From positions 471,945 through 535,944 of the forward strand of contig NZ_JACIBY010000004.1 in the NCBI RefSeq assembly GCF_014195535.1: a stretch of DNA of 64,000 nt, written 5' to 3'. The DNA is from Runella defluvii. Lineage in GTDB: Bacteria > Bacteroidota > Bacteroidia > Cytophagales > Spirosomataceae. Below, in pieces: positions 45,405 through 64,000 of the stretch; position 1 is the stretch's first letter; every line of letters starts with the position of its first letter. The notes under the pieces are model-generated. The model was not told where the DNA came from. It ran no database searches and saw only the letters and a program-made list of their open reading frames with translations. A program made the position numbers and the translations under genes.

Positions 45405-45953
45405 TTGAAAAAATTAACTGCAATCGGTCTCCTACTACTGCTGCTCTACAATATGTTTGGGCTGACAGTAACCGTTTTGCTTTTTGACAAGGATTTTAGA
45501 ACAGCATCGCCGACCGCCGCAAACGACGAGTGGCAAACCCTCAAAATGCACCTCCCTACGCTTCCTTATAATACAACCTGGGAAAATGCGCAAGGGCAGG
45601 AAGGATTAATCAGACATGGGGATGAGTTTTATAACGTGACCGAACAACGTCACGAAAATGATACTTTGTACGTAACCATGAAAACCAACCAAACAGCGCG
45701 TGATCGCTTTTTTGAGTTGGCCGACCAAATTCAAGAGATGACTGACCAAACGGCGCAGTCGCCCGATAGCCCAATGGGGAAAGCGGTGAAACTCTTGTCC
45801 GATTTATTGAAAGTTTATCTTCCCACTTCTATCATGGAATGGCCTACTGCTCAGGTGATTAAAACTTTGAGCCAAGAGAACTATGCCACACCAACACATT
45901 CATTGCTTCAAGCTGTTTTATTGCTTCATTGTCCGCCTCCAGAGCACGTTTAA
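45405..45953 (+). CDS. Small membrane-anchored protein, PPPE family copy 1 (TTG start)
   Basis: A 182-residue protein that starts with TTG: there is no ATG in this frame between the upstream stop at 45357 and 45405. It has an N-terminal helix (GLLLLLLYNMFGLTVTVLLF), a soluble domain (QEGLIRHGDEFYNVTEQRHE; NDTLYVTMKTNQTARDRFFE; LADQIQEM) and a C-terminal tail ending CPPPEHV. Related copies lie at 50597 and 61371. Identical layout, length and non-ATG start in all three indicate a real family. It precedes an outer-membrane protein gene. I do not recognise the family. Confidence 0.72.
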   Translation: MKKLTAIGLLLLLLYNMFGLTVTVLLFDKDFRTASPTAANDEWQTLKMHLPTLPYNTTWENAQGQEGLIRHGDEFYNVTEQRHENDTLYVTMKTNQTARDRFFELADQIQEMTDQTAQSPDSPMGKAVKLLSDLLKVYLPTSIMEWPTAQVIKTLSQENYATPTHSLLQAVLLLHCPPPEHV

Positions 45954-46048
45954 TGAAAACTATGGGTGAAGACTGCCTCAAGGGTAGCTCATTCAAATAG
46001 GCTATTTATCGCCTATTGACAACCATTTTTCATTAACCCAAGCTCATA

Positions 46049-46273
46049 ATGAAGACACTTATAGGGGTACTATTACTATTGGCTACGGCTCTGCTTACCT
46101 GTAGAGATACGCAAGCAGCTAAAAAGTGGTCTAGTAAAAGCGCGCAATTATGTACTCGTCCGAACGAAGTTCGTACGTTTGACCTTTCAACAACTAGTGA
46201 AACATCGGTAAAAGACATACCGCCAGTGGGGTGTGCTTTGCCAATGGCGCAGCTAGAAAAGGTAGTACAATAA
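46049..46273 (+). CDS. Small exported Cys-containing peptide
   Basis: A 74-residue protein with signal sequence MKTLIGVLLLLATALLTC; the Cys could be lipidated. Two more Cys follow (AQLCTRPNEVRTFDLS; PPVGCALPMAQLEK). It lies between the first PPPE-family gene and the outer-membrane barrel gene, all on the + strand. It is short, so the call is tentative; the clear signal sequence and position support it. Confidence 0.5.
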   Translation: MKTLIGVLLLLATALLTCRDTQAAKKWSSKSAQLCTRPNEVRTFDLSTTSETSVKDIPPVGCALPMAQLEKVVQ

Positions 46274-46433
46274 CGCTCCTGTAACAAATTCATCTATGTT
46301 AATGCTGGGTTGAAAACAAATCATTTTCAACAACCCTCTTTCGTAAGCTGACGAAAGGCCGTCGTTATTGAGCAAATTGCTTACTGACGTAGCTCCTCGT
46401 TTGTACACGGAAGCCTAAGATTATCATAACCAG

Positions 46434-47537
46434 ATGAAAAAAATTATATACTCTCTAATCGGTTTATTTTTAGCCAATGAAAGCTTTTCGCAAGGTTGCG
46501 TAGCGGTTCGTCACATGAGTTGTGCAGCTACTAATTCGCTTACATCTTCCGAATATTTTAAACAAAAAAATGCCCAGTGGCAGGTCAACATGGGCTACCG
46601 CTATTTTCGTTCGTACAAACACTTTGTGGGCGATGAAGAGCAAAAACACCGCGTAGAACAGGGAACAGAAGTAATCAACTTGTCGCACGCACTAGATTTG
46701 GGGATTAGCTACCAACCCAACGCCCGCTTGTCTTTGGGGGTTAATTTGCCCATTCAATACAACGACCGTTCTTCGCTTTACGAACATTATGGCAATGCCG
46801 TCAGTGGCAATCCTGATCAAAAACGTTTTCACACAAAATCGCAGGGTATTGGCGACGTACGTATCTCGGCAACGTATTGGATGATAAATCCTTACAAACT
46901 ACCAAAGTTTAATTTTGCCATCGGTGGTGGTCTTAAATTGCCAACGGGCAACTACCACGTTACCGACGCGTTTCACAAACTCAATAAAGAAAAACAAGAT
47001 TATACCATCGTCAAACCCGTTGACCAGTCGATTCAGTTGGGGGATGGTGGCGTAGGTTTTAGCTTAGAAACCCAAGGTTACTGGCAAATTGCTAAAACAA
47101 CAACGGCTTATTTAAACGGATTTTATTTGTTTAACCCCAAAGAAACCAACGGTGTCGTACGTAGCCCAGAAGCTACTACCATTGATTTAGTCACGGGGAC
47201 ATTTTCAGTGGCTGACCAATTTGCAGCGCGTGCGGGCGTGAGCCAAACGTTTGCCAACTATTTCTCGGTGATGTTGGGTGGTCGTGCCGAAGGAGTTCCT
47301 GCCATTGATGCCATCGGTGGAAGCAGCGGTTTCCGCCGCCCAGGCTACATTATTTCGGTAGAACCTGGTGTTGCTTTTATGAAGGGTAAATTTTCGGCAA
47401 CCGCTACGGTGCCTTATGCACTTTACCGCAACCGTACTAGAAGCTATTCTGACCGCCTTGATCCGCTTGGCGTACGTCACGGAGATGCAGCATTTGCCGA
47501 CTACTTGGTTTCGGTAAACATTAGTCGCTGGTTCTAA
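46434..47537 (+). CDS. Outer-membrane beta-barrel protein (transporter-like)
   Basis: A 367-residue protein with signal peptide MKKIIYSLIGLFLANESFSQ. A short Cys-bearing N-terminus (GCVAVRHMSC) is followed by paired amphipathic strands (WQVNMGYRYFRSYKHFVGDE; RLSLGVNLPIQYNDRSSLYE; FNFAIGGGLKLPTGNYHV), reminiscent of phenol/meta-pathway transport barrels. The C-terminus ends VSVNISRWF, an aromatic outer-membrane insertion signal. It probably passes a small molecule. The Cys pair near the N-terminus is unusual for this class and could bind a metal. Confidence 0.75.
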   Translation: MKKIIYSLIGLFLANESFSQGCVAVRHMSCAATNSLTSSEYFKQKNAQWQVNMGYRYFRSYKHFVGDEEQKHRVEQGTEVINLSHALDLGISYQPNARLSLGVNLPIQYNDRSSLYEHYGNAVSGNPDQKRFHTKSQGIGDVRISATYWMINPYKLPKFNFAIGGGLKLPTGNYHVTDAFHKLNKEKQDYTIVKPVDQSIQLGDGGVGFSLETQGYWQIAKTTTAYLNGFYLFNPKETNGVVRSPEATTIDLVTGTFSVADQFAARAGVSQTFANYFSVMLGGRAEGVPAIDAIGGSSGFRRPGYIISVEPGVAFMKGKFSATATVPYALYRNRTRSYSDRLDPLGVRHGDAAFADYLVSVNISRWF

Positions 47538-47597
47538 CGTATAGGTGCAGCGTTATATTTTTTGATGAATTATAATTACGTATTAATAGATTATTGA

Positions 47598-48491
47598 ATG
47601 AAAAAGTTACCTCTTTTATCGACGATAGCAGCAATTTGCTTCTCATTGTCGGCCATGGCCCAGATGCCCAACGACGCGATTTATATGTCGAAAGGGCAGG
47701 TGTGTGTAGCTACCATGTACACCAATAGTTCTTGGAAAGAATACTGGGAAAATACCCTCAAGCGTGAAAACCTCAACATTGGGACACATACCACGCAGAG
47801 CGTGATGGTGATGCCTGCCATTGGGGTGAGCAATCGCCTAAACTTGATGTTGGCTTTGCCTTATGTTTGGACACAAACATCGGCAGGTAACTTGATGGGA
47901 CAGAAAGGTTTACAAGATTTGTCGGGATGGCTCAAGTGGAAAGCTGTTGATGTGAAAGGATTCTCCTTAAATGGTTTAATTGGAGCTTCTATCCCAGTGA
48001 GTAAGTACGTGCCCGACTTTTTACCGATGTCGATTGGGCTTCAGTGCCGTACGGTATCAGCACGTATTTTGCCTAGTTATCAGCACAAATCAGGTGCGTA
48101 TGTGACGGGGCATTGGACGTACTCATGGCGCAGCAACATTCACGTGGATCGTGATGCGTATCAGGCCGATGACCGTGTCTATAATACTAACGAAGTCAAT
48201 GTCCCTAATGCCACCGATTGGGGCGCAAGGGTAGGGATTTTGAAAAGAAAATGGCAAACAGAAGTGTTTGTGGAGAACTTCTCTTGTGTAAACGGGGATA
48301 ATATTCGCCGCAATGACATGCCTTTCCCAACCAACAACATGGAAGCCACTACCGTGGGCTGGTACGGAAAACTTCAGCCCAAAGCCTTGGGGATGAACGC
48401 CCGCGTAAGCTACGTAACCAACGGCCTTAACATGGGACAAAGTACGAGCATAATGGTAGGGGTATTGTATTTGTTTAATTTCAAAAAGTAA
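47598..48491 (+). CDS. Outer-membrane beta-barrel protein
   Basis: A 297-residue protein with signal peptide ending SAMAQ. The mature part has barrel-like strands (TTQSVMVMPAIGVSNRLNLM; SGWLKWKAVDVKGFSLNGLI; AYVTGHWTYSWRSNI) and a C-terminal strand (STSIMVGVLYLFNFKK). It begins with a Cys-bearing segment (YMSKGQVCVATMYTN) reminiscent of the preceding barrel. It ends 2 bp before the first vanadium-haloperoxidase-like gene, so the two are co-translated. Confidence 0.7.
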   Translation: MKKLPLLSTIAAICFSLSAMAQMPNDAIYMSKGQVCVATMYTNSSWKEYWENTLKRENLNIGTHTTQSVMVMPAIGVSNRLNLMLALPYVWTQTSAGNLMGQKGLQDLSGWLKWKAVDVKGFSLNGLIGASIPVSKYVPDFLPMSIGLQCRTVSARILPSYQHKSGAYVTGHWTYSWRSNIHVDRDAYQADDRVYNTNEVNVPNATDWGARVGILKRKWQTEVFVENFSCVNGDNIRRNDMPFPTNNMEATTVGWYGKLQPKALGMNARVSYVTNGLNMGQSTSIMVGVLYLFNFKK

Positions 48492-48493
48492 TA

Positions 48494-50047
48494 ATGGCCA
48501 TGAAAAAATATTTTCCATATTTGAAATATAGCGGCATTACGCTGGCAATTTTAGTGGGCGTGTTTGCCTGTGATAAAACCATTGAAGAACCACAACGAGT
48601 AGGCTATACCCCTGCCAGTGTCGATGAAAAAGCAGGGGCGTGGAAAACCTATTTGTTGGCTTCTGCTGAGGAAATCAGTGTACCTGCACCTACGGCCGTA
48701 ACGTCGTCGGATTATGTGGCCGAATTAAGCGCTTTGAAAGGTTTGGCCAGTAATCTGAGCCAAGAGCAAAAAGAAGCCGTGGTGTATTGGGGCGCTGGAG
48801 CGGTGTATCGTTGGAACGAAATCGCCCGTGAGTTAGCGGCGCGTTATAACATTCCTCCCGCATCTAATGCCGACGGAAAATATCCTGTACCCGATGCGGC
48901 AAATCCATTGGCTGACCCTAAGTTTCCGTTTGCTAACCCGCCTTATACGTCGCGTGCGTTGGCGTATTTGTCAGTAGCTCAGTACGATGCGTTGGTGTCG
49001 GCGTGGAATTTTAAGTACAAATTTAAGCGTTCTGCTCCCTCAAAAGTGGATGCAAGTATTCCCGCAGCGTTGCCTGTATCGGCTTTGCCAAGTTACCCTT
49101 CAGAAGATGCGGTGGTGGCGGCAGCTTCGGTGACGATTTTAAAGGCGATGTTTCCTGGTGAAGTACCCTATTTGGATGCAAAATTAAAGGAACATTTGGC
49201 GAGTCGTCAGTGGGCAGGGATGAACGTTACCTCTGATTTGACAGCGGGTACCAACCTTGGCAATGCGGTAGCGGCCAAAGTAATGGGACGTGCTAGAACC
49301 GACGGAATGGGAGTTGCTAACAACCAAGCGTTGACCGCAGGTATGATTGAGGCCGCCAAAAGCCGTGGCATCAAAGAGCCGTGGGTAAGCCAAGAAGCGC
49401 CTGCGCGTCCGCCGATGTTGCCTAACTTCGGAGCGGTACAAACGTGGAATTTTGACCGTAAAACGTTGGAGCAAATTCGTCCCGTGATGCCGTACGTGGT
49501 AGGTTCGGCAGAATGGCAGAAAGAGTTGGATGAGTTGAAAAGCATCCAAAATAAACAAACGCGCGAACAAGCGCGCATCGCCAACTACTGGGCCGACGGA
49601 GCTGGTAGCTACACGCCTCCAGGCCACTGGCACCGTGCCGCTGCCAATGCAGCGCACGAGGCTAAGTTCAGCGAAATCAAAATGGCTCGTACGTTGGCCT
49701 TGCTCGGAACAGCCGAAATGGATGCGGGTATTGCGTGTTGGGAAACCAAATACTATTACTATACGCCTCGCCCTCAGCAGTTTGGGGCAAAGACGTCGGT
49801 GGGTTTGCCTAACTTCCCGTCTTACACATCAGGCCACTCTACGTTCTCGGCCGCAGGAGCAACGGTATTGGGTTATATTTTTCCAGACCAAGCAGAGAAA
49901 TTTAACGCTCAAGCACAGGAAGCCTCGGTTTCACGTATTTACGGCTTGATTCACTACCGTATCGACTGCGACTTAGGTTTAAAGCACGGCAAAGTGATTG
50001 GAGAATACGCCATTGCTCGCGGAAAAGCCGACGGTTCTGGCTTGTAA
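48494..50047 (+). CDS. PAP2/vanadium-haloperoxidase-type lipoprotein 1
   Basis: A 517-residue lipoprotein (lipobox LVGVFAC; a second in-frame ATG at 48500). All parts of the vanadate/phosphate site are present with the spacing of vanadium chloroperoxidase: Lys419 to Arg426 (KYYYYTPRP), Ser446-Gly447-His448 (TSGHSTF), and Arg481 to His487 (SRIYGLIHYRID). The long helical N-terminus (about 400 residues before the SGH motif) fits vanadium haloperoxidases better than short PAP2 phosphatases. It could oxidise halide with peroxide or act as an acid phosphatase. Two related genes lie at 55908 and 57373. Confidence 0.88.
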   Translation: MAMKKYFPYLKYSGITLAILVGVFACDKTIEEPQRVGYTPASVDEKAGAWKTYLLASAEEISVPAPTAVTSSDYVAELSALKGLASNLSQEQKEAVVYWGAGAVYRWNEIARELAARYNIPPASNADGKYPVPDAANPLADPKFPFANPPYTSRALAYLSVAQYDALVSAWNFKYKFKRSAPSKVDASIPAALPVSALPSYPSEDAVVAAASVTILKAMFPGEVPYLDAKLKEHLASRQWAGMNVTSDLTAGTNLGNAVAAKVMGRARTDGMGVANNQALTAGMIEAAKSRGIKEPWVSQEAPARPPMLPNFGAVQTWNFDRKTLEQIRPVMPYVVGSAEWQKELDELKSIQNKQTREQARIANYWADGAGSYTPPGHWHRAAANAAHEAKFSEIKMARTLALLGTAEMDAGIACWETKYYYYTPRPQQFGAKTSVGLPNFPSYTSGHSTFSAAGATVLGYIFPDQAEKFNAQAQEASVSRIYGLIHYRIDCDLGLKHGKVIGEYAIARGKADGSGL

Positions 50048-50130
50048 AGACTTGCTTAACTTTAAATGAAAAACTCACCTTAATACTCATTTAAACAATC
50101 GCTTTATTGAGCGATGTCATATTAAAAACA

Positions 50131-50574
50131 ATGAAACTAATCGTTACTTTACTTTTGACAGTGGCTAGTTACACGTTTGTAGCAGCCCAAACCACACCCT
50201 CTGAAATTTCACAATTATTGACCAATTGGCACAATGGCTTGGTAAAAGGAGACTTAGAAGGAGTAAACGCAATGTATGCGAGCGACGCAGTCTTTTTTCC
50301 GACGTTTATCAATAGTGCCAATACCCCCGAAGCGCGTAAAGCATTCTTGACAACCTTGATTGCCAAAAAGCCCGTCGCGACTGTTAATAATGACCAACGG
50401 ATTCGCATTTTTGGGGATGTAGCCACAAGTTCAGGGACGTGGATGTTTGACGTAAATGCCGCCGATGGTAGCCGCGAAAAAAAGCCCGTCCGTTATTTAT
50501 TTGTGTATGAAAAAAGAGGAGGAAAATGGCTCATTATCGAACAACACGTTTCGGCCTTTCCTGAGAAAAAATAA
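50131..50574 (+). CDS. Exported SnoaL/DUF4440-like protein
   Basis: A 147-residue protein with signal peptide MKLIVTLLLTVASYTFVAAQ. The NTF2-like alpha+beta body includes LLTNWHNGLVKGDLEGVNAM, YASDAVFFPTFINSA, and SSGTWMFDVNAADGSREKKP. Such proteins act as small-molecule isomerases or binding partners. The ATG at 50131 is preferred over 50107. It lies between a haloperoxidase-type gene and the second PPPE-family gene. Confidence 0.8.
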   Translation: MKLIVTLLLTVASYTFVAAQTTPSEISQLLTNWHNGLVKGDLEGVNAMYASDAVFFPTFINSANTPEARKAFLTTLIAKKPVATVNNDQRIRIFGDVATSSGTWMFDVNAADGSREKKPVRYLFVYEKRGGKWLIIEQHVSAFPEKK

Positions 50575-50596
50575 GTAAAAACAAGGTACTGACAAC

Positions 50597-51145
50597 GTGA
50601 AAAGGTTCGTCTCTATACTACTTTTTGGGCTCTTGCTCTACAACATGGTAGGCTACTCGGTAGTCTATTGGTTGGGGGGCAATGTGGCGCTTGAAGTACA
50701 AAAGGACGAACCTCTTTCTGCTGTACAGGAAGGCGATTTTGTTACCGTAAAAGTGCCCGTTTCGCTGCCGTACCAAACCGATTGGACAGCACCCGAACCT
50801 GTCCAAGGCACCATCCAAGCAGGGAGTGAATTTTACGAAATGGTGGAGCAAATCATGCTCAATGATACACTTTTTATCAAATGTAAACCCAACCGCGACG
50901 CCCGCGCCAATTTTGAGGCGTTGTCAGAACACATTGATCAACACATTAAAAATCAGACTACTGAATTTCCGAAGCCGTCAAAGTCTTGGGCAGGGCAGTG
51001 GCTAAAAGAATACGTTTCGTTTCAACGTTTACACGTATTTTACGTAGTAGAATGGCTGACCGACTCCACACCGTTAACAACTTCTTTGTCTTCTTTCTTG
51101 TCTCGCACCACGCGAGTCGTTTCTCCGCCACCTGAGTTAGCGTGA
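50597..51145 (+). CDS. Small membrane-anchored protein, PPPE family copy 2 (GTG start)
   Basis: A 182-residue protein starting with GTG; the frame carries a stop at 50576 and no ATG before 50597. N-terminal helix RFVSILLFGLLLYNMVGYSV; soluble core with QGTIQAGSEFYEMVEQIMLN, DTLFIKCKPNRDARANFEAL, SEHIDQHI; tail ends SPPPELA. It aligns over its whole length with copies at 45405 and 61371, although it is more divergent. It is 22 bp after the SnoaL-like gene and about 95 bp before the first AhpD-like gene. Function unknown. Confidence 0.72.
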   Translation: MKRFVSILLFGLLLYNMVGYSVVYWLGGNVALEVQKDEPLSAVQEGDFVTVKVPVSLPYQTDWTAPEPVQGTIQAGSEFYEMVEQIMLNDTLFIKCKPNRDARANFEALSEHIDQHIKNQTTEFPKPSKSWAGQWLKEYVSFQRLHVFYVVEWLTDSTPLTTSLSSFLSRTTRVVSPPPELA

Positions 51146-51241: not shown

Positions 51242-51799
51242 ATGCCACATATTCCTCTTCCTGAGCATCTGCCTGGTATTACAGGGCTGCTCGAATACCG
51301 TTTGGACACAGCGCTGCCGATTCGTGACCTTACGCAGATTTTACTGCGGGGAGAATCTTCCCTGACGCAAGGCGAACGCGAGCTGATTGCGACGCTGGTT
51401 TCTTCCCGAAACTGCACCAACTTTTGCGAAGCTGCACACACCAAAGCTGCTGATTTGCTGTTGGGCGAATCGGAAACGGCGCGTTTGGTAAAGCAAAATT
51501 TTGAAACCGCTCCCGTGAGCGACAAAATGAAAGCTTTACTGAACATCGCCGCCTTGGCTCAAATCAATGGGAAATCGGTAACAACCGAAGCGGTAGAGCG
51601 CGCTCGCTTGGCGGGTGCTACCGACCTTGAAATTCACGACACGGTGTTGATTACGGCGTTGTTTTGCCTTTACAACAAGTACGTGGATGGACTGGCAACG
51701 GTCGCGCCATCTGACCCAGCGTTTTACCAGACGTTGGGCGAACGCATCGTGGGACGCGGTTATACCCGCCCACCAGGTGGTTTTGTGGCTCCTAAATAA
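51242..51799 (+). CDS. AhpD-like peroxidase-related protein 1 (shifted Cys pair)
   Basis: A 185-residue carboxymuconolactone-decarboxylase-fold protein of the 'uncharacterised peroxidase-related' type. Hallmarks are GERELIATLVSS, DKMKALLNIAALAQ and GATDLEIHDTVLIT. The AhpD motif is C-x2-C-x3-H (Cys59, Cys62, His66 in the two later copies). Here the first Cys is at 58 (NCTNFCEAAH), making C-x3-C and breaking the usual redox pair, although Cys62 and His66 remain. There is no signal peptide, so it is cytoplasmic. It is 31 bp before a TonB receptor gene. Confidence 0.85.
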   Translation: MPHIPLPEHLPGITGLLEYRLDTALPIRDLTQILLRGESSLTQGERELIATLVSSRNCTNFCEAAHTKAADLLLGESETARLVKQNFETAPVSDKMKALLNIAALAQINGKSVTTEAVERARLAGATDLEIHDTVLITALFCLYNKYVDGLATVAPSDPAFYQTLGERIVGRGYTRPPGGFVAPK

Positions 51800-51830
51800 T
51801 GCACCCTCTTTGTCAAAATCGTTAAATTCA

Positions 51831-55907: not shown

Positions 55908-57272
55908 ATGAACTCGTTGATAAAAAAATGGATCCCTTGGATGATGCTAATGGCGGTCGTGGCCGCCTGTAATCGCTCCCAAGACGTTACTCCCCAAAAA
56001 CAACTAAATGAATACGACGCGAAAGTCGTGCTGAAATGGGGGGAATTGTTTTTAGAACTTGATCGCTATGCACCAGGCTACCGTCCGCCCGTGGCGGCGA
56101 GGGCTTTTGCCTACATTGGTTTAGCGGCTTACGAAACGGTGGTGTCGGGTACAAAAGAATACCAATCGCTTGCACCTTATTACGCTGGAATAAGCATACC
56201 AAAAGCCGAAGCGGGAAAAGCGTACCATTGGCCAACGGCAGTGAATGCCTCGTACCTGTCGATGATGTTGAAGTTTTTTCCGCACGTGAGTACCGACCAA
56301 AAGGCAAAAATAAACCAGTTGGGCGAATCGCTCTTCAAGGAGTTTCAGGCAGAAACCGATGCGGAGACTTTTGCGCGTTCGCGGGCGTTGGGCGAAAGCG
56401 TGGCTTCGGTCATGTTTGAGTATTCAAAAACGGATAAAAATGGACACGAGGCGTATTTGAATCCGCATCCTATGGATTATGTACCGCCGACGGGGGTAGG
56501 AAAGTGGCAACCTACAAAACCTGATTTTACGAGGGCTTTGTTGCCTTACTGGGGGCGCACGCGCACTTTCGCCATTACGGTAGAAGACAAAGTGGCCAAG
56601 CCACCCATCGAATACAGTTCGCAAATCACGTCGCAGTTTTTTGCGCAAGCGCTGGAAGTGTGCTCGTTTCCAGATAATTACGAAAATAGGTGGATTGGCG
56701 AGTTTTGGAGCGACGATATTTTTGAACAGACGTTTGAGCCCGCCGCACGTTGGATTGCGATTGCTAACCAAGTAATGATACAAGAAAAAGCCCACCTCGA
56801 AACGGCCGTTTATACGTATGCCAAACTAGGAATGGGGCTGAGTGATGCGGGTGTGGCTTGTTGGAATTCTAAATACCTCTACAACGTAGAACGCCCGATT
56901 TCTTACATCAATCGCTCCATCAATCCGAAATGGATAACGTTGCTTGACAATACGGTAAGAAAAATGAAGGGAATTACGCCGCCCTTTCCCGCCTATCCGT
57001 CGGGGCATTCGACGTTTGGGGCCGTTGCCGCCGAGATATTGTCAAACATCTTTGGCTATAAGTACGAAATGACCGATAAAAGCCATGAGTTTCGGGTGGA
57101 GTTTATTGGGAAACCTCGAAGCTTCCACAACTTCAACGAGATGGCCTATGAAAATGCTATCTCACGGATTTTGCTCGGGGTGCATTACCGCATGGATTGC
57201 GACGAGGGGCTGAGAATGGGGTACAATGTAGGCCGAAAAGTGAATGCAATGAAGTGGAAACCAGTGAATTAG
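55908..57272 (+). CDS. PAP2/vanadium-haloperoxidase-type lipoprotein 2
   Basis: A 454-residue lipoprotein (MMLMAVVAAC lipobox). The complete site is present: Lys322 to Arg329 (KYLYNVERP), Ser365-Gly366-His367 (YPSGHSTFGA), Arg420 to His426 (SRILLGVHYRMDC). This matches the K-x6-RP, PSGH, SR-x5-H-x3-D motif set of the family. The 300-residue helical N-terminus suits a haloperoxidase-type fold. It is 74 bp after the MFS gene and followed by a related gene. Halogenating activity, or phosphatase activity, cannot be decided from sequence alone. Confidence 0.88.
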   Translation: MNSLIKKWIPWMMLMAVVAACNRSQDVTPQKQLNEYDAKVVLKWGELFLELDRYAPGYRPPVAARAFAYIGLAAYETVVSGTKEYQSLAPYYAGISIPKAEAGKAYHWPTAVNASYLSMMLKFFPHVSTDQKAKINQLGESLFKEFQAETDAETFARSRALGESVASVMFEYSKTDKNGHEAYLNPHPMDYVPPTGVGKWQPTKPDFTRALLPYWGRTRTFAITVEDKVAKPPIEYSSQITSQFFAQALEVCSFPDNYENRWIGEFWSDDIFEQTFEPAARWIAIANQVMIQEKAHLETAVYTYAKLGMGLSDAGVACWNSKYLYNVERPISYINRSINPKWITLLDNTVRKMKGITPPFPAYPSGHSTFGAVAAEILSNIFGYKYEMTDKSHEFRVEFIGKPRSFHNFNEMAYENAISRILLGVHYRMDCDEGLRMGYNVGRKVNAMKWKPVN

Positions 57273-57372: not shown

Positions 57373-58836
57373 ATGGTGAAAATGGATAAAAAACGGAAGA
57401 CAATAGCGAAAGTAAGCAGTTGGTTGGGACTGGGAATCATCTTTTTAGTGACGCCATTGCTTCAGGCTCAAAACAGAGATAAAGGCAACCTAAAAGATGC
57501 CTCGCTGCCTACGGCTTGGGCTAAAATGACCGTGCAAGTAATGGCGCAAGCGCAAAACAACACCCCTACGTATGGCTCCAGGGCATTGGGGTACATTGGG
57601 CTTACGATGTACGAAACGTTGGTGCCTGCGTCTTCAACGCATCGTTCCATCGCGAAATCGCTTTGTGATACATTGTCGCTCGCGAAACCCAATAAGAACT
57701 ATTCGTGGGAATTGGCCATGAATGCAGGTCAAGCGCACATTGTGAAGGCGTTTTATGGTTATGCCCAAAAAACGAGCGGCATCGACTCGTTGGAAAATGC
57801 CATTTACCAACAGTATTCTTCCCACGTTTCGCCTGCGGTCGCCGCAGCCTCGGTTGCTTACGGTCGGGCGCTGGCGAATCGTATCTACGAATGGGCCAAA
57901 TTAGACGGTGGGCATGAGGGGCATTTGAGAAATTTCCCCAAAGACTATAAGCGACCAGAGGGACAAGGGAAGTGGGTGCCGCCTACTGTTGGTCAATCAA
58001 ATTCTAAAATTCCGATGCACCCAACGTGGGGGCAGAACCGTACTTTTTCGTCAAAAAATGCCCAATTGCCTTTGCCCGAGCCTTTGGTTTACTCAACAGA
58101 CACTACCAGTGAGTACTATAAACAATATACTGAAGTTGCAGAGCAAAAAAGAAAACTAACAGAAGAAGATCGAGCGATAGTCATGTGGTGGGGTGATGAC
58201 CCTACCGAAACGTGCTCGCCCCCAGGGCATTCGTACCATTTGGCAACCATCGCCATTCTGAATAGCAATGCCGATGCCATCAAAGCGGCCGAAACTTACG
58301 CCCGCGTCGGGATGGCCGTGGCAGATGCGTTCATTTGTTGTTGGAAAGCAAAGTTTGCCCACATGGTTCAGCGCCCGTCGTCGTTTATCAGGCAAACTCA
58401 TCGGAAAAAAGAGCGGTATCCAGGAGAAATGATTAATTGGTTGCCGTTCTTCTTAGAGCCGCCTTTCCCTGCATTTTATTCGGGTCATGCTGTGCAGTCG
58501 GCAGCTACGGCTACTGTGTTGACCGAAATGTACGGCGAAAACTTTTCATTCACCGACGCTACTCATGCGGGGCGCAGTCCCAAACGTTACTACGTAGTCA
58601 AACCGCTTCCTGCCAAATATGAAGAACTGTTAGCAATGGGAGACTACATCCCCGAGTACCTTGAAAAAGAAGTGAAATTTCAGCCACGTCACTATGGCTC
58701 ATTTTGGGAGGCGGCCAAAGAATGTGCGGAGTCGCGTTTGAAAGGGGGGATTCATACACGGCACGATAATGACGTTGGACTCGCAGAAGGGACTAAAATT
58801 GGCCAGAATATCAACGCATTACGCTGGCGGAAATAA
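57373..58836 (+). CDS. PAP2/vanadium-haloperoxidase-type exported protein 3
   Basis: A 487-residue protein with an N-terminal export signal (SWLGLGIIFLVTPLLQAQ) and no lipobox, unlike copies 1 and 2. The site is complete: Lys327 to Arg334 (KFAHMVQRPSSF), Ser370-Gly371-His372 (YSGHAVQSA), Arg455 to His461 (SRLKGGIHTRHDND). SGH is followed by Ala-Val instead of Ser-Thr, and the insert between the two elements is longer (WLPFFLEPPFPAF). It may have different substrate choice. AhpD-like genes follow directly. Confidence 0.87.
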   Translation: MVKMDKKRKTIAKVSSWLGLGIIFLVTPLLQAQNRDKGNLKDASLPTAWAKMTVQVMAQAQNNTPTYGSRALGYIGLTMYETLVPASSTHRSIAKSLCDTLSLAKPNKNYSWELAMNAGQAHIVKAFYGYAQKTSGIDSLENAIYQQYSSHVSPAVAAASVAYGRALANRIYEWAKLDGGHEGHLRNFPKDYKRPEGQGKWVPPTVGQSNSKIPMHPTWGQNRTFSSKNAQLPLPEPLVYSTDTTSEYYKQYTEVAEQKRKLTEEDRAIVMWWGDDPTETCSPPGHSYHLATIAILNSNADAIKAAETYARVGMAVADAFICCWKAKFAHMVQRPSSFIRQTHRKKERYPGEMINWLPFFLEPPFPAFYSGHAVQSAATATVLTEMYGENFSFTDATHAGRSPKRYYVVKPLPAKYEELLAMGDYIPEYLEKEVKFQPRHYGSFWEAAKECAESRLKGGIHTRHDNDVGLAEGTKIGQNINALRWRK

Positions 58837-58885
58837 GCGTAAAAAGTTATTCAAAAAACAACCCTTGTTAACTTAAAATACATCT

Positions 58886-59434
58886 ATGCCACATATTTCA
58901 TTACCCGAAGGTTTTCCTGGAATCCGTAGTTTGGCGGCTTATCGTCCTGATACGGGGGCGGCTTTGTATGCGCTGGCGGAAGCACTTTTGAGAGGCGATT
59001 CGTCTTTTTCGCAAGCTGACGCGGAGTTGATTGCCACCTTTACCTCGTCGCTCAATCAATGTACTTTTTGTACGTGTAGCCACGCCGCCGCTGCCCGTTT
59101 TCTGTTTGAAAGCAACCAAGACGTCGTCGATGCAGTCATGGCGGATTACCACACGGCACCGATTTCGGATAAAATGAAAGCGTTGTTGACCATTGCCAAA
59201 TGTGTTCAAGAAGACGCCCGCACTGTTTCGGAAGACATAGTGGCCAATGCTCGCTTACTCGGAGCCACCGACCGCGAAATCCATGACACAGTGCTGATTG
59301 CGGCCACGTTTTGTATGTTCAATCGCTACGTGGACGGCTTGGCCACCGTGACCCCTACCGATGTTGCTGATTATATCCCAATGGGTGAACGTATGGGTAC
59401 GCTGGGATATGTGCCGCCGAAGCCACAAGCCTAG
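58886..59434 (+). CDS. AhpD-like peroxidase-related protein 2
   Basis: A 182-residue relative of the proteins at 51242 and 59509. The redox motif is intact: Cys59-Thr-Phe-Cys62 with His66 (CTFCTCSH), plus an extra Cys64. Conserved segments are DKMKALLTIAKCVQ, GATDREIHDTVLIA and NRYVDGLATV. AhpD-type proteins use this CxxC pair to reduce peroxides with a thiol reductant. It lies 50 bp after the third haloperoxidase-type gene. Its TAG stop is part of the palindromic hairpin behind it. Confidence 0.88.
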   Translation: MPHISLPEGFPGIRSLAAYRPDTGAALYALAEALLRGDSSFSQADAELIATFTSSLNQCTFCTCSHAAAARFLFESNQDVVDAVMADYHTAPISDKMKALLTIAKCVQEDARTVSEDIVANARLLGATDREIHDTVLIAATFCMFNRYVDGLATVTPTDVADYIPMGERMGTLGYVPPKPQA

Positions 59435-59467
59435 ACCTTATAGGTTTTTGAAACCTATAAGGTCTAG
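59431..59467. terminator. Perfect 17-bp palindromic hairpin
   Basis: CTAGACCTTATAGGTTT, loop TTG, then its exact reverse complement. The stop codon of the AhpD-like gene lies within the left arm. No T tract follows. It resembles the hairpin at 2923 with coordinated changes in both arms. Confidence 0.8.
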
Positions 59468-59508
59468 AAAAATTCGACATTCTACACTCTAAAATTCGAC
59501 ATTTTACC

Positions 59509-60078
59509 ATGCCACATATACAATTTCAAAACGACTTACCAGGGATTTTGGGTCCGATGAATTTTAGCCCACATACGGCCGAACCAATGAATGCACTGGC
59601 CAATGCGCTTTTGCAAACCGACGAAGGACTGAGCCGTGGCGAACGTGAACTGATAGCCACCTACGTTTCATCCCAAAACGACTGCTTTTTCTGCCAAACC
59701 ATTCACGGAGCGGTGGCAAGTGAGTATTTGGGAGACGACGACTGGTCGTTGGTCAAAGCCGTAAAATGTGATTACGAACAAACCGCGCTTTCGGACAAAA
59801 TGAAGGCATTGTTGGCGATTGCGGGTAGCGTGCAAAAAGGTGGAAAGCACGTTACGACCGAACAAGTAGAGGCTGCAAAAGTACAAGGTGCTACCGACCG
59901 TGAAATTCACGACACGGTACTCATTGCAGCGGCTTTTTGCATGTTCAATCGGTACGTGGATGGGTTAGCGACGATTGCGCCTCAAAACCCTGAGGTATAT
60001 CGCGCTAGAGCTGCTAGGGTTGTTGAAAAAGGATATTCATCGGAAGGGAAATATACTTCTGAAAAGATTATATCATAG
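59509..60078 (+). CDS. AhpD-like peroxidase-related protein 3
   Basis: A 189-residue protein with a full redox motif: Cys59-Phe-Phe-Cys62 and His66 (CFFCQTIH). It also has GERELIATYVSS, DKMKALLAIAGSVQ, and GATDREIHDTVLIA. It is clearly a tandem duplicate of the previous gene. A 13-bp direct repeat (AAAATTCGACATT at 59469 and 59491) lies in its leader. A terminator follows. The physiological peroxide or lactone substrate is unknown. Confidence 0.88.
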   Translation: MPHIQFQNDLPGILGPMNFSPHTAEPMNALANALLQTDEGLSRGERELIATYVSSQNDCFFCQTIHGAVASEYLGDDDWSLVKAVKCDYEQTALSDKMKALLAIAGSVQKGGKHVTTEQVEAAKVQGATDREIHDTVLIAAAFCMFNRYVDGLATIAPQNPEVYRARAARVVEKGYSSEGKYTSEKIIS

Positions 60079-60091
60079 GTTGGAGTGATTG

Positions 60092-60122
60092 AAAACTCCC
60101 AGCAGTTTTGTTGGGAGTTTTT
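60092..60122 (+). terminator. Rho-independent terminator
   Basis: AAAACTCCCA, 10-base loop, TGGGAGTTTT then one more T. It ends the AhpD-like pair. Confidence 0.88.
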
Positions 60123-60157
60123 ACCAAAATTAACCCTATCAAAATGGATAGTTTTCT

Positions 60158-61315
60158 ATGAAAAAACTTTTTTACATCGGTATTATTGGCCTGATTCTTT
60201 TTGAAATCGCCAACGTGTATTTCATCATGCCCATGCCAGGCAGCCAACGCATGAACAGCATTGACGCGGCCTATTTTTTACACACGTGGCGGTGGGTGTT
60301 TCGCGCGGTGTTCGGGGCAATGGCTTTGGTTGGGGCTTTTGTAGCTTTCCGAGGAAAAAAATGGGAGCCGTACGTCGCTGGTATTTGCATCCTTGCGGTC
60401 GCAGCAGTTACCTACGCTGCCAATTTCAAAATGGCGGCCGATTCGATGTTTTACCAGCCTTCAGTACTGACGCTGAAAAATAGAATAGATAATAAAGTAG
60501 CCAAAGAACGTCTTGTGATTGGGGTGGAAGTCAATGGACAAACGCGGGCGTATCCGATTAAATACATTGGGTATCACCACCAAGTGCAAGATACGTTGGG
60601 AGGAAAACCGATTATTGTGACGTACTGTACCGTTTGCCGCACGGGTAGGGTGTTTGAGCCGCTGGTGGACGGGAAAAAGGAAATGTTCCGATTGGTCGGG
60701 ATGGATCATTTCAACGCCATGTTTGAAGATAAAACCACAGGTAGCTGGTGGCGGCAGGCCAACGGGGAGGCGATAGCGGGCGAGCTAAAAGGGAAATTTT
60801 TACCTGAAGTTCCTGTGATGCAACTTACTTTGGCGAAATGGATGGAGCTGCACCCAACGACGTTGGTGATGCAACCCGATGCAAAATTTCAAGAAAAATA
60901 TGATTCATTAAGTAAATACGAAACAGGAAAACGGACGGGAGAGCTGACCAAACGTGACTTCGGCTCGTGGAATGATAAATCGTGGGTGGTGGGTGTAGAG
61001 GTCAACGGAGGGGTCAAAGCGTATGATTGGAATCAATTGCAAAAAGAAAAAATCATCAATGACATGATTGGTTATTTGCCAGTAACGGTGGTGCTGACAT
61101 CTGATAAACAGAGTTTTGTGGCACTACAACGGGCCACGCCTGGGCAAAAACTCAGTATGAAAAACGATTCGCTGTATGATGAGGGAGGCTGCGTGTATGA
61201 TTTGCTGGGCAAGTCGCACCGAAAAGGTATCCCTGATTTGGAAAGAGCCAATGCGTATCAAGAGTATTGGCACAGTTGGAAAACGTTTCATCCCAATACA
61301 AAAAGGTATAAATAA
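60158..61315 (+). CDS. DUF3179 domain membrane-anchored protein
   Basis: A 385-residue protein with three predicted transmembrane helices at the N-terminus (LFYIGIIGLILFEIANVYFI; WVFRAVFGAMALVGAFVAF; GICILAVAAVTYAANF) and a large soluble domain. The DUF3179 signature is ERLVIGVEVNGQTRAYPIKY, then YCTVCRTG with a CxxC pair (Cys157, Cys160), and GMDHFNAMFEDKTTGSWWRQ. The CxxC suggests a redox or metal function outside the cytoplasm. It lies between the AhpD-like genes and the third PPPE-family gene. Confidence 0.88.
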   Translation: MKKLFYIGIIGLILFEIANVYFIMPMPGSQRMNSIDAAYFLHTWRWVFRAVFGAMALVGAFVAFRGKKWEPYVAGICILAVAAVTYAANFKMAADSMFYQPSVLTLKNRIDNKVAKERLVIGVEVNGQTRAYPIKYIGYHHQVQDTLGGKPIIVTYCTVCRTGRVFEPLVDGKKEMFRLVGMDHFNAMFEDKTTGSWWRQANGEAIAGELKGKFLPEVPVMQLTLAKWMELHPTTLVMQPDAKFQEKYDSLSKYETGKRTGELTKRDFGSWNDKSWVVGVEVNGGVKAYDWNQLQKEKIINDMIGYLPVTVVLTSDKQSFVALQRATPGQKLSMKNDSLYDEGGCVYDLLGKSHRKGIPDLERANAYQEYWHSWKTFHPNTKRYK

Positions 61316-61370
61316 TTTTTGGCATGATAATTGGTAGCTTAAATTTGTACCCGTTATTGTGCCAATTTCA

Positions 61371-61928
61371 TTGAAAAAACTACTCTCCACCGGTCTATTA
61401 ATCGTACTGCTCTACCACATGTTTGGGCTGTCGGTGGCATTGTTGTGTTTTGAAGATGAATACCAAAGCGCTTCTCCCGTTGCCAAAAATGACCAATGGG
61501 ATATAATTAAGATACCTCTTCAAGAATTGCCTTACGTTTCTTACCAAGAAATCCCTGCCGAACAGGAAGGGCTGATTCGAAAAGACGGCGATTTTTATAA
61601 TATTGTGAAGCAGTATCACAAAGACGATACACTTTACATTGTCCTGAAAACCAACCACGACGCCCGCGAGCGTTTTACCGAACTTTCCAATCAAATTCAG
61701 GAGTCGTTGGATGCTACGTCCAAAGCGCCACTGAATCCTGTGAAAAAAACGATTGCGCTATTTTTAGGGTTATCCAAGTCGTACGTATCCAATGCAGAGT
61801 TGGTTTGGCCTCCGTTGCTATTTGCAGGTTATTTGCCTAAATCCGTCTATTACCTTTCTTCTCAGATTCCTTCAGATTCCTTTTTTCATCTTTTGTCGCC
61901 CCCTCCCGAGTTCGGTAAACTTGCGTAA
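61371..61928 (+). CDS. Small membrane-anchored protein, PPPE family copy 3 (TTG or GTG start)
   Basis: A 185-residue protein if TTG at 61371 (MKKLLSTG) is used, by analogy with copy 1; GTG at 61359 is the alternative (189 residues). No ATG is available. N-terminal helix LLIVLLYHMFGLSVALLCF; core QEGLIRKDGDFYNIVKQYHK, DDTLYIVLKTNHDARERFTE, LSNQIQES; tail SPPPEFGKLA. It is closest to copy 1. It is followed, 58 bp on, by a TonB receptor gene. Confidence 0.72.
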   Translation: MKKLLSTGLLIVLLYHMFGLSVALLCFEDEYQSASPVAKNDQWDIIKIPLQELPYVSYQEIPAEQEGLIRKDGDFYNIVKQYHKDDTLYIVLKTNHDARERFTELSNQIQESLDATSKAPLNPVKKTIALFLGLSKSYVSNAELVWPPLLFAGYLPKSVYYLSSQIPSDSFFHLLSPPPEFGKLA

Positions 61929-61986
61929 TTTCTTGGCTTTGTGCCAGCTAAAAAAGTTTACTAACCAATTATTAGGGAGCTATTGA

Positions 61987-64000
61987 ATGATAAAAAATAC
62001 ATCATTCCTGTTGCTAGGGTTATGCCTTGGCCTACAGGGTTATTCTCAAAAAACGAAGCCAGACACCACTCGAAACTTGAAAGAAGTAGAGGTTGTTGGG
62101 CTGCGTGAACGAATCCAAATCGAACGCTTACCTGACGTGCATCAAATGCTGATTGCCGCAGGAAAAAAGAGCGAAGTGATTCATTTGTTGGGACTAAATG
62201 CGAACATCGCCGAACGCAATCCTCGTCAACTTTTTGCCAAAATTCCTGGCATATTCGTGTATGACATGGACGGTTCGGGCAACCAAATAAACATTGCCAC
62301 GAGGGGGCTTGACCCGCACCGTAGCTGGGAGTTTAATGTCCGTTACAATGGCGTCATTGGCAATACCGATATGTATGGTTACCCTGCCAGCCACTATAAT
62401 CCGCCCGCCGAATCGTTTGAGCGGATTGAGGTGGTGCGCGGCACGGGCTCGCTCCAGTACGGCGCGCAGTTTGGCGGAATGGTCAATTACGTGAGCAAAC
62501 AAGCGGACACTACCCGCAAATTTGGGTTTGAAAACATCAGTTCGTTGGGCTCTTTTGGCTTGCTAAGTTCCTACAACGCCATTGGCGGGAAAGTCGGAAA
62601 GCTGACGTATTATGCGTATTACCACCGCCGTAAGTCAGACGGATATCGTCAGAATAGCCGCTCGGAATCGGAGTCGCAGTACGTTGGTTTACAATACGAT
62701 TTTACGCCAAAATTGTCGTTAAAAGCGGAGGTAGGACATACCGATTATGTGTATCAAATTCCTGGGCCGCTGACCGACAGTATGTTTTTGGCCAATCCAC
62801 GAATGTCCACCCGTTCGCGCAATTATTACGAACCAGACATCTACCTGCCTTCGCTCACGCTGCGTTGGGAAATAACGCCTCGGACGCGTTTGCAATGGGT
62901 AAACTCAATGGTCCTTGGAGCGCGCAACAGCGTGATGATTGATGCTTTTGCCACGGTCAAAGACGCCATCGAAGCCAGTACGTTGCAGTACAAAAATCGC
63001 CAAGTGGATGTTGACAAATTCAACAGTTTTACGTCTGAACTTAAACTTTCGCATGATTACCAAATTGGGCAGATGAGCTCGGTATTGGTGGCAGGAGTGC
63101 AGGTGATGAACAACGATTTGAACCGCAGACAACTAGGCAAAGGCACCACAGGCAGTGATTACGACCTGACGCTCGTAGGAACCGACGGCTGGGGACGTGA
63201 CATGCACTTTAAAACCAAGAACGTGGCAGTATTTGCCGAAAACTTATTGTATTTGACCCGCCGCTGGACAGTCTCCCCAAGTTTCCGTTTGGAGAGTGGT
63301 CAAACCGATTTTTCGGGATACATCCGTTACCTCAAACCTGAGGTAGTTCCCAACAGTATTCCGCATCGCTTTCCGTTGTTTGGAGTCAGTACGCAGTACC
63401 GTCTGAACGAACAAAACCGAATCTATGCGGGCTGGTCGCAAGCGTATCGCCCCGTGATTTTGAAGGATATTATTCCTGCCTCAGTGTTGGAGCGGGCAGA
63501 TAAAAACCTGAAAGATGCGCATGGGTACAATCTTGAGGTAGGAATGAGCGGTCGTACTGGCAAGCTACATTACGACATCACTGGTTTTGTTCTAAGCTAC
63601 AAAAATCGCCTTGGTAGCCTGATTCTTGCGGACCCCGATGGCACGTCGTACATCTTCCGTACCAACATCGGCGACAACCTCAACAAAGGCGTTGAGATGT
63701 ACTTAGAATACGAGTTTTTGCGTAGCCGTCGTACTCGCTTGTCGGTATTTACCTCAACGGCCTACATTGATGCCCGTTACGTAAAAGGCAAAGTGAGCAA
63801 CGGAAAAGACAACCAAGACATTGTAGGCAACCGCGTGGAGTCAGTACCTGAGTGGACAAGCCGCAATGGGATTGAGTTTAACCACCGCTGGTTGAGCACA
63901 ACATTGTTGGGTAGTTATGTGTCAAAAACGTTTGCCGACGCCCTCAATACGGTGCAACCTTCGGCTAACGGAGCGAAAGGGGTGGTTCCAAGTTACACCA
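61987..64000 (+). CDS. TonB-dependent receptor (3' end outside window)
   Basis: The frame opens at ATG 61987 (signal peptide MIKNTSFLLLGLCLGLQGYSQ) and stays open to the window end, 671 residues so far. There is no carboxypeptidase-like domain, unlike the receptor at 51831. The plug is clear: LKEVEVVGLRERIQIERLPD, ATRGLDPHRSWEFNVRYNG, and ERIEVVRGTGSLQYGAQFGG, with the barrel following. This shape is close to FecA-type iron-citrate receptors, but the substrate is not shown. It follows a PPPE-family gene. Confidence 0.92.
   Translation, partial: MIKNTSFLLLGLCLGLQGYSQKTKPDTTRNLKEVEVVGLRERIQIERLPDVHQMLIAAGKKSEVIHLLGLNANIAERNPRQLFAKIPGIFVYDMDGSGNQINIATRGLDPHRSWEFNVRYNGVIGNTDMYGYPASHYNPPAESFERIEVVRGTGSLQYGAQFGGMVNYVSKQADTTRKFGFENISSLGSFGLLSSYNAIGGKVGKLTYYAYYHRRKSDGYRQNSRSESESQYVGLQYDFTPKLSLKAEVGHTDYVYQIPGPLTDSMFLANPRMSTRSRNYYEPDIYLPSLTLRWEITPRTRLQWVNSMVLGARNSVMIDAFATVKDAIEASTLQYKNRQVDVDKFNSFTSELKLSHDYQIGQMSSVLVAGVQVMNNDLNRRQLGKGTTGSDYDLTLVGTDGWGRDMHFKTKNVAVFAENLLYLTRRWTVSPSFRLESGQTDFSGYIRYLKPEVVPNSIPHRFPLFGVSTQYRLNEQNRIYAGWSQAYRPVILKDIIPASVLERADKNLKDAHGYNLEVGMSGRTGKLHYDITGFVLSYKNRLGSLILADPDGTSYIFRTNIGDNLNKGVEMYLEYEFLRSRRTRLSVFTSTAYIDARYVKGKVSNGKDNQDIVGNRVESVPEWTSRNGIEFNHRWLSTTLLGSYVSKTFADALNTVQPSANGAKGVVPSYT

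Follow-up and report, generated by a model that had tools for sequence, protein, structure and literature searches.

Which process, if a common one, do the haloperoxidase-type enzymes, AhpD-like proteins, receptors and carrier encoded in a single run of Runella defluvii DNA serve? Within the window, by which we mean the whole stretch of 64,000 nucleotides that was analysed, the gene block begins at 45405; it ends some 2.7 kb beyond the last base of the window, forming a run of about 20 kb on the + strand (Table 1).

Gene content of the block

The SnoaL-like protein, the DUF3179 protein, the two TonB receptors, the single MFS carrier and the three PPPE proteins listed in the initial annotation were all found on the + strand, and its three AhpD-like proteins are present, all scoring above the PF02627 cut-off. 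The genes of its two barrels are there as well, and their barrel nature is putative, as BAR1 barely reaches the Phenol_MetA_deg cut-off and BAR2 has no family. In the gene maps BAR2 is usually immediately upstream of VHPO A, the DUF2490 gene also adjoins in seven Runella-group maps and in one from another genus (L195), and the SnoaL-like gene is missing from the maps of two genomes (G168 and G176). Off-window, VHPO D is followed by a 152-codon ORF with an internal lipoprotein-like start and then by a LEA_2-like protein scoring below the cut-off. Pfam annotation of the block identified no gene for a halide carrier, an oxidase or a peroxide source, which was counted against the peroxide-driven system proposed below. 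For RNA elements, a search of 42000-64000 against Rfam was empty up to E 1.

Table 1. Features of the block and its flanks, with coordinates in the window unless another source is named.
Feature	Position	Strand	Evidence or remark
DUF2490 protein, just upstream of block; may belong	44554..45321	+	PF10677 80 bits
TACCTTTG, fits TAnnTTTG, before PPPE a	45377..45384	+	Sequence; enrichment count
PPPE a, TTG start; N-terminal hydrophobic helix, small soluble domain, C-terminal PPPE	45405..45953	+	
Small lipoprotein-like ORF	46049..46273	+	Among loci read, matches in Runella only
BAR1, putative outer-membrane channel	46434..47537	+	PF13557 (Phenol_MetA_deg) 22.6 bits, cut-off 22; recurring partner
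BAR2, putative outer-membrane barrel (by eye)	47598..48491	+	No Pfam family above cut-off
VHPO A, 517 aa, lipobox-like VFAC	48494..50047	+	PF01569 46.3 bits; top match of predicted fold 4cit; site intact
SnoaL/CaMKII_AD-like protein, ATG at 50131	50131..50574	+	PF08332 59.6 bits
PPPE b, GTG start	50597..51145	+	
AhpD-like a, CTNFC...H (C-x3-C)	51242..51799	+	PF02627 above cut-off
TonB-dependent receptor 1 (TBDR1)	51831..54605	+	Best NCBIfam TIGR04056 (SusC) 129 bits, below cut-off of 368
MFS carrier, nearest to aromatic acid/H+ symporters	54611..55834	+	PF07690 109 bits; TIGR00895 154 bits, below cut-off of 418.55
VHPO B, 454 aa, lipobox-like VAAC	55908..57272	+	PF01569 and VCPO_N below cut-off; 4cit E 4.7e-42
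VHPO C, 487 aa, signal peptide by eye, without lipobox	57373..58836	+	PF01569 21.9 bits, below cut-off of 27.2; alignment and site
AhpD-like b, CxxCxxxH (CTFC/CFFC pair with c)	58886..59434	+	PF02627 40.5 bits
AhpD-like c, CxxCxxxH	59509..60078	+	PF02627 56.9 bits; TIGR01926 89.5 bits (cut-off 81.8); 2oyo E 3.6e-15
DUF3179 protein, N-terminal hydrophobic stretches (by eye), TYCTVC	60158..61315	+	PF11376 191.8 bits, cut-off 27
TAAATTTG, fits TAnnTTTG, before PPPE c	61340..61347	+	
PPPE c, start TTG 61371 by alignment; GTG at 61359	61371..61928	+	
TonB-dependent receptor 2, FecA-like, 728 aa	61987..64000, past window end (L008:932-3118)	+	FecA E 9e-13
VHPO D, off-window, 3' of receptor 2	L008:3237-4601 = C4:536236-537600		Starts 292 bp past window end

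AhpD-type proteins handle peroxides. Three of the four AhpD matches in the genome lie in the block, the fourth being weak (21.7 bits). The motif of copy a is C-x3-C and not CxxC, a spacing kept in all seven Runella-group copies, and CxxCxxxH occurs in 59 of 67 AhpD sequences; copy a (73.2 bits) remains below the TIGR01926 cut-off that copy c exceeds. The match to this peroxidase-related family (TIGR01926, 2oyo) would suit an oxidative stress locus in which VHPOs and AhpD-like proteins form two layers removing H2O2 or organic peroxide. Also in favour of peroxide defence are the triggering in Zobellia of a CMD-family protein, especially on Laminaria digitata, and of one vIPO on Ascophyllum nodosum (PMC9296495), and the suggestion that haloperoxidases defend against plant ROS (PMC4926216). 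However, such a locus leaves the two receptors and the carrier unexplained, and no catalase, peroxiredoxin or regulator was found among the block's genes identified by Pfam annotation; we regard it as rather unlikely. In the DUF3179 proteins the motif TYCT[VM]C was found in 17 of 19 sequences, and PMC9312934 tabulates DUF3179 selenoproteins with UxxC.

For the MFS carrier TIGR00895 was the best of 26 families, with a score that places it outside that family. Since both the carrier and TBDR1 score under the curated NCBIfam cut-offs, their substrate class is a guess; the nearness of the carrier to aromatic acid symporters and of BAR1 to Phenol_MetA_deg were counted as hints of an organic or aromatic compound. 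FecA-type transducing receptors are defined by an N-terminal STN signalling domain. In receptor 2, of which the window covers 671 of 728 aa including the N-terminus, Pfam detected no such domain; besides Plug and barrel there was just one porin match below threshold, and the alignment of receptor 2 with FecA begins at residue 78.

The vanadium haloperoxidase homologues

The initial annotation had reported three enzymes with the full site; the site was confirmed, and the block holds four full-length VHPO homologues (A-D). Two more are encoded in the genome, on C9 (paralogue E) and C15, and all six (A-F) have intact K-x6-RP, SGH and SR-x5-H residues. Vanadium haloperoxidases and acid/PAP2 phosphatases have a common vanadate/phosphate site. 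A profile of five paralogues matched 4cit over 439 of 448 positions (E 5.3e-111) and fungal chloroperoxidase (1idq, 1vnc) at E 6e-23 to 1e-22. When the predicted fold of VHPO A was searched with Foldseek, 4cit was the top match (E 6.1e-14, TM 0.57 by query, rmsd 8.9), and acid phosphatases were also among the matches, more weakly (E 7.7e-5 and above) and with the core alone aligned. The seven-residue Lys, Arg, Ser-Gly-His, Arg, His site was intact in 85 of 86 distinct VHPO sequences and in 4cit, that is, in 110 of the 111 alignment rows once duplicates are included. All 111 rows, duplicates included, have a Trp three positions before the site Lys, and 110 of them have a Phe at the 397 position; we take these two positions to set VHPOs apart.

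Because of the near-full-length match to 4cit and the intact site, the enzymes differ in sequence and fold from ordinary PAP2 phosphatases. VHPOs came out on top in the sequence search with the profile of five and in the fold search with A alone, which places the enzymes outside the PAP2 phosphatases in the narrow sense, and the profile, predicted-fold and tree comparisons identify them as VHPO homologues and not as the generic phosphatases that had been named as the alternative. A system of vanadium-free acid phosphatases, releasing phosphate from organic esters for uptake, could invoke the common site, the Foldseek matches and an NCBIfam PhoC match of 19.7 bits, far under the cut-off of 430. 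But VIPO1 and the chloroperoxidase match over the full length where the acid phosphatases do not, the Trp and Phe are VHPO-type, and TBDR1 and the MFS carrier have no phosphate-specific look, all of which makes this system improbable.

Paralogue E shares 44.9% identity with 4cit and falls in the same tree group (support 1.0), and its relatives in Spirosoma and Fibrisoma sit directly 3' of a PPPE gene (L168, L172, L177, L182). The cluster copies A-D are 23-30% identical to 4cit, and therefore halide oxidation is not transferable to them from that enzyme. This distance, together with a carrier that resembles an organic acid symporter, argues against iodine handling, in which iodide would be oxidised for import or storage and receptors and barrels would carry iodine species; even with an iodoperoxidase as the nearest solved enzyme, we consider that explanation very improbable.

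Lipobox-like signals in VHPOs A, B, D, E and F point to an envelope location of these enzymes. Such a location would also favour chemical defence or signal quenching, where hypohalite made at the surface acts on competitors, biofilms or signals, and the transporters and AhpD-like proteins guard the producer. Quorum signals are among the known or proposed targets of VHPOs (PMC8407465), and AhpD-like genes are nearby in all 47 cases discussed below. Nevertheless, a Dyadobacter receptor and carrier module without a VHPO resembles uptake and not protection, and no biosynthetic genes were identified in the block by Pfam annotation, so that defence appears unlikely.

Recurrence of the modules and their PPPE leader

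VHPOs were present in 27 of 28 genomes searched. Six other Runella-group genomes preserve the gene order of the block, though with some genes lost: VHPO B and C are missing from the cluster in four of the six, and two have no more than a short piece of receptor 2. Other genera have the block split into PPPE-led operons (PPPE-BAR2-VHPO, PPPE-AhpD-receptor-MFS-DUF3179, PPPE-receptor and PPPE-VHPO), and a class-wide sample, in which core genes lay downstream in 12 of 20 PPPE-like loci read, includes PPPE-VHPO-BAR1-BAR2-VHPO and PPPE-AhpD-TBDR1-MFS-AhpD-AhpD. A partner gene was found within 5.5 kb downstream in 59 of 60 PPPE loci and upstream in 4 of 60, with all 139 downstream partner matches on the PPPE strand. 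The families are thus neighbours in other genomes, where their separation had been named as grounds for abandoning a joint system, and the uptake genes and AhpD-like genes share modules, which partly supports the oxidation and uptake system first suggested. As these gene sets recur in other genomes, chance adjacency is very unlikely and was ruled out; and because they recur as separate operons in related bacteria, the gene sets of the block probably work together in a process of oxidation and uptake. The repetition of families, previously ascribed to modular expansion, may be better read as adjoining modules: in Dyadobacter the modules are separate loci within one genome, each PPPE-led, and in Runella they lie next to one another and include up to three PPPE copies.

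All 47 strong AhpD matches in the 28 genomes have a VHPO or PPPE less than 10 kb away; a VHPO is within 10 kb in 29 of 47 overall and in 0 of 14 in the six Dyadobacter genomes searched. Of 138 VHPO places, 33 are within 10 kb of a listed PPPE, most VHPOs lying outside PPPE modules. The Dyadobacter AhpD genes without a nearby VHPO, the VHPOs outside PPPE modules, and the loss of B and C and the shortening of receptor 2 in some Runella-group clusters were counted against one joint system.

The three PPPE copies stand, but not the family by which they had been named: the label describes a C-terminal motif, and no Pfam match reached the cut-off for any copy. Searching the genome with the three copies returned these three alone (E <= 0.001), and no relative of solved structure was found by profile up to E 10. 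The PPPE model (pLDDT 61) was too weak for its fold search to be meaningful (best E 0.27). PPPE genes are usually promoter-proximal and mostly start with TTG or GTG. TAnnTTTG, which we take to be the Bacteroidetes -7 promoter element, precedes 59 of 97 PPPE genes, against 4 of 194 control windows and 7 of 297 partner genes; none was seen in the 75 bases before PPPE b. A consensus scan for promoters (27 sites against 23.7 in shuffles, with an E. coli-type sigma-70 consensus) and terminators (19 against 25.1, no excess) was set aside because it gave no more sites than shuffled sequence. That PPPE is VHPO-specific was ruled out, as weak relatives in more distant families precede TonB-type genes without a VHPO, an observation also counted against one joint system.

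A possible function and comparison with known systems

On the basis of the observed gene content, conserved order, intact VHPO sites and promoter-proximal PPPE, we tentatively propose that the block consists of envelope operons, mostly PPPE-headed and lying side by side in Runella, for peroxide-driven oxidation of a compound, followed by uptake and reductive clean-up. The VHPO lipoproteins would bind vanadate and use peroxide, in the periplasm or at the cell surface, to oxidise halide or the substrate directly, and the reactive product would attack an organic, perhaps aromatic, compound. Barrels and TonB receptors may then move the compound across the outer membrane and the MFS carrier across the inner one, while the AhpD-like CxxC proteins in the cytoplasm and DUF3179, a CxxC protein of the membrane, would handle oxidised products or peroxide. 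PPPE, which has a single N-terminal membrane helix and a small, probably periplasmic domain, may be an accessory to outer-membrane/VHPO operons, its level perhaps held low by the TTG start. In a bolder version, which we hold to be doubtful, PPPE would be the hallmark of an as yet undescribed Bacteroidota envelope system made up of several operons. As a scarce membrane protein translated from TTG, it would link channels of the outer membrane to VHPOs, and hypohalite would oxidise an organic compound on the outside, which is then imported and reduced. If true, this would amount to oxidative foraging by halogen chemistry in these bacteria.

What is new is the arrangement of known enzymes together with a small protein family for which no description was found in the literature. 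Open-licence papers yielded none on a VHPO role in Runella or relatives and no matches for VHPO with TonB-dependent and Bacteroidetes, with CRTAC1 or with UnbV; judged by titles, the few matches for Runella and for AhpD concern no such system. The conserved operons supply partners for the VHPO role (BAR2, AhpD, the receptor-carrier pair, DUF3179 and PPPE), and since these are concrete, the purpose of the VHPOs becomes approachable by knock-out and growth tests in Dyadobacter or Runella, which can be cultivated. PPPE, through its lead position and a start codon that is mostly not ATG, offers a handle on unexplained small membrane proteins before outer-membrane transport genes.

Among known systems, the FecA ferric citrate receptor (1kmo) resembles receptor 2 in barrel and plug (E 9e-13), whereas receptor 2 is without the N-terminal signalling domain by Pfam. 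The AhpD-like peroxidase-related proteins (TIGR01926; 2oyo, 2pfx, 3c1l) have CxxCxxxH in common with most of the sequences here, and copy c, unlike copy a with its C-x3-C, scores above the TIGR01926 cut-off. The Curvularia vanadium chloroperoxidase (1idq, 1vnc) matches the profile and has the same site, but the Runella enzymes are shorter and match VCPO_N in B only, below the cut-off. The vanadium iodoperoxidase VIPO1 of Zobellia galactanivorans (4cit, 4usz) is alike in whole-length homology, in the seven site residues and in the Trp and Phe positions; the Runella cluster copies differ from it in their low identity, and they are set in PPPE-led operons with barrels, receptors, MFS and AhpD genes.

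Gene block and its conservation within Runella

In the 8.0 Mb genome, 17 consecutive plus-strand genes run from 45405, and the block extends beyond the window end. Their order is PPPE a (a small protein with a C-terminal PPPE motif), a small lipoprotein, the putative outer-membrane barrels BAR1 and BAR2, the vanadium-haloperoxidase homologue (VHPO) A and SnoaL, followed by PPPE b, the peroxidase-related AhpD a, TonB receptor 1, the MFS carrier, VHPO B and VHPO C, and finally by AhpD b, AhpD c, DUF3179, PPPE c and TonB receptor 2. Off the window come VHPO D, a small lipoprotein-like ORF and a LEA_2-like protein, and then an opposite-strand gene.

The block order was retained, with losses, in all six other same-genus genomes examined (R. 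aurantiaca G010, Runella sp. CRIBMP G168, G176, G335, R. zeae G352 and R. limosa G361). PPPE c was missing in G010, G168, G176 and G352, and the cluster of the same four genomes lacked VHPO B and C. The SnoaL gene was not on the maps of G168 and G176, where TonB receptor 2 was reduced to a short piece. In R. zeae, a B-like VHPO stands at a separate site, where a DoxX-like gene and a PPPE of its own precede it. In R. limosa and G335, the interval from AhpD c to DUF3179 holds an unnamed protein of 432 aa together with a SusC/SusD-like pair. In both R. limosa and Emticicia, an FG-GAP/UnbV_ASPIC protein separates receptor 1 from MFS; at further loci such a protein adjoined PPPE or AhpD. A membrane protein resembling DoxX, with a score under the Pfam cut-off, recurred at four of the more distant loci and in Emticicia and R. 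zeae.

Coordinates of the window, of features within it and of features at related loci (L-numbers)
Feature	Coordinates	Strand	Remark
Window	C4:471945-535944		contig C4
PPPE a	45405	+	TTG/GTG-start operon leader gene
PPPE b	50597	+	TTG/GTG-start operon leader gene
PPPE c	61371	+	TTG/GTG-start operon leader gene
AhpD-like copy	51242-51799	+	CTNFC replaces CxxC
Likely transcript 1	45405-61315	+	
Likely transcript 2	61371 onwards	+	
Ferredoxin-type protein	L008:8855-10597		~6 kb past window; NuoI-like by eye; long tail of STVDSPQTTEEK-PAARPKPVFVPKKPI repeats
VHPO homologue	L175:12001-13362		Emticicia sp. C21; vanadate site lost (K A S D N Q Q); open frame, DUF3179 gene nearby
VHPO pair	L193:3296-15049		Dyadobacter; flanks 1128 aa FG-GAP/UnbV protein, SusD-like and SusC-like genes (by eye)
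FG-GAP/UnbV_ASPIC	L056:17450-19729; L071:6495-8840; L219:7439-9682		in or beside AhpD/receptor/MFS modules
DoxX-like protein	L071:5607-6461; L066:8007-8942; L217:2859-3701		near VHPO, several genera

PPPE genes, their starts and their neighbours

The three PPPE copies of the genome all lie inside the block. The protein had no Pfam match above cut-off and no relative in the PDB. It has a hydrophobic helix at the N-terminus and, in a low-confidence predicted model, a small beta domain (LPY, FYN, NDTLY) as well as helices; in 92 of 108 proteins, PPP lies within 16 residues of the C-terminus. Of 108 PPPE frames (107 distinct), 90 lacked an ATG at the hydrophobic core or upstream of it. The closest start codon was TTG in 84, GTG in 11, ATG in 11 and none in two, and a slightly stricter rule gave 80, 11, 11 and six, respectively. 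Among the partners, frames without ATG numbered 0/73 for VHPO, 0/26 for BAR1, 1/50 for BAR2, 0/23 for TonB receptor 1 and 1/22 for receptor 2. As operon leaders, the PPPE genes of the window and of related loci mostly use TTG or GTG, and an ATG is available in almost all partner genes.

The element TAnnTTTG was found 12-65 bases upstream of 59 of 97 PPPE genes (105 minus eight with a doubtful start). Of 194 control windows lying farther upstream, 4 contained it, shuffled sequences gave a mean of 5.1, and 7 of 297 partner genes had it. In the window it precedes PPPE a and c and is absent before PPPE b; the block is therefore likely to be read as two transcripts.

A search found PPPE in at least 144 of 390 genomes and at least 44 of 129 genera of the order; these are lower bounds, as at most eight candidates were scored per genome, and weak PPPE seen in G236 were absent from the search result. 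We then considered 60 further places taken from the score list with one stretch skipped, their surroundings not being known beforehand (13 genera, five families); they are not independent because 19 genomes are Dyadobacter, and 40 partly context-selected stretches were omitted from the count. A partner family lay within 5.5 kb downstream at 59 of the 60 places (exception L119) and upstream at four, and all 139 downstream matches were on the PPPE strand. The partner models drew on hits from the same loci, which favours detection, not one-sidedness. The first downstream partner was BAR2 (25), AhpD (15), BAR1 (9), TonB receptor 2 (8), DUF3179 (1) or TonB receptor 1 (1).

At class level, a profile from 47 PPPE sequences matched 40 of 395 genomes. 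Twelve of 20 inspected loci had core families downstream, for example PPPE-VHPO-BAR1-BAR2-VHPO (L213) and PPPE-AhpD-TonB receptor 1-MFS-AhpD-AhpD (L220), and 11 of these twelve were outside the order; five had a weak TonB-type match alone (60-63 bits) and three had none of the partner families. Thus, PPPE is a wider small-protein family, often ahead of outer-membrane transport genes, and its best conserved setting is the VHPO/AhpD modules.

Haloperoxidase homologues and AhpD-like proteins

The genome encodes six VHPO homologues, four of them in the block (A-D) and two elsewhere (E, F); a seventh hit of the genome search was another piece of A. With the Pfam PAP2 model, A and B scored above cut-off, C below, and D had no match. 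For a five-paralogue profile, the Zobellia galactanivorans iodoperoxidase structure 4cit was best (E 5.3e-111), fungal chloroperoxidase was next (6e-23), and acid phosphatases appeared at E 1.6e-4. The predicted structure of VHPO A (pLDDT 87) also had 4cit as its top fold match (E 6.1e-14). The TM-scores of this match were moderate (0.57 by query, rmsd 8.9), which means that domain placement differs or is uncertain. Identity to 4cit was 22.9% (A), 28.2% (B), 29.6% (C), 29.7% (D), 44.9% (E) and 31.6% (F). All seven vanadate/phosphate site residues were kept in 110 of the 111 rows of the alignment, the exception being the copy in Emticicia sp. C21. These rows represent 4cit and 86 distinct sequences, since certain genomes occurred twice under different names. 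W-x-D, taken here as equivalent to Asp292 of chloroperoxidase, was present in 110 rows, 4cit being the sole deviating one. Because of the sequence match and the intact site, A-F belong to the VHPO family, their activity being predicted. VHPO pairs about 10 kb apart occurred in eight of nine g4 genomes.

Linkage was assessed in 28 hand-chosen family members (20 with PPPE and eight without by the order-wide search). Of 61 AhpD rows, 47 exceeded 200 bits; the remaining 14 (at most 53 bits) were left out. All 47 lay within 10 kb of VHPO or PPPE (42 near PPPE, 29 near VHPO). Of 138 VHPO places, fragments and weakest rows excluded, 33 had a listed PPPE no more than 10 kb away. By our own arithmetic, with 2-5 zones of 20 kb in 6-8 Mb, about 1-2 per hundred would be expected there by chance. 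Hence the strong-scoring AhpD subfamily goes with the system, and the VHPO class as a whole does not. The CTNFC form was observed in the seven copies of the Runella group. None of 60 other AhpD sequences shared it: 59 had CxxC, and the motif was missing from one truncated piece.

A possible role of the block

The initial annotation proposed peroxide-driven oxidation and uptake of a compound. We regard oxidation followed by uptake as tentative, somewhat short of an even chance, our confidence being lowered slightly because sister genomes have lost B, C and receptor 2; the rival readings are defence, removal of peroxide, a phosphatase role and iodine handling. The logic of oxidation followed by uptake derives from likely protein locations. 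VHPO A, B, D, E and F carry lipobox-like signals, which may be a clue to their location; the barrels and receptors would lie in the outer membrane and the carrier in the inner membrane, the AhpD-like CxxC proteins appear by eye to have no signal peptide, and a further CxxC protein of the block would be membrane-located. Weak carrier and BAR1 matches hint at aromatic compounds.

The gene set was not described in the portions searched of the open-licence literature, including PMC11871015, PMC9296495, PMC8407465, PMC4926216 and PMC9312934. A redox role of DUF3179 would fit, since DUF3179 selenoproteins with UxxC are tabulated in PMC9312934.
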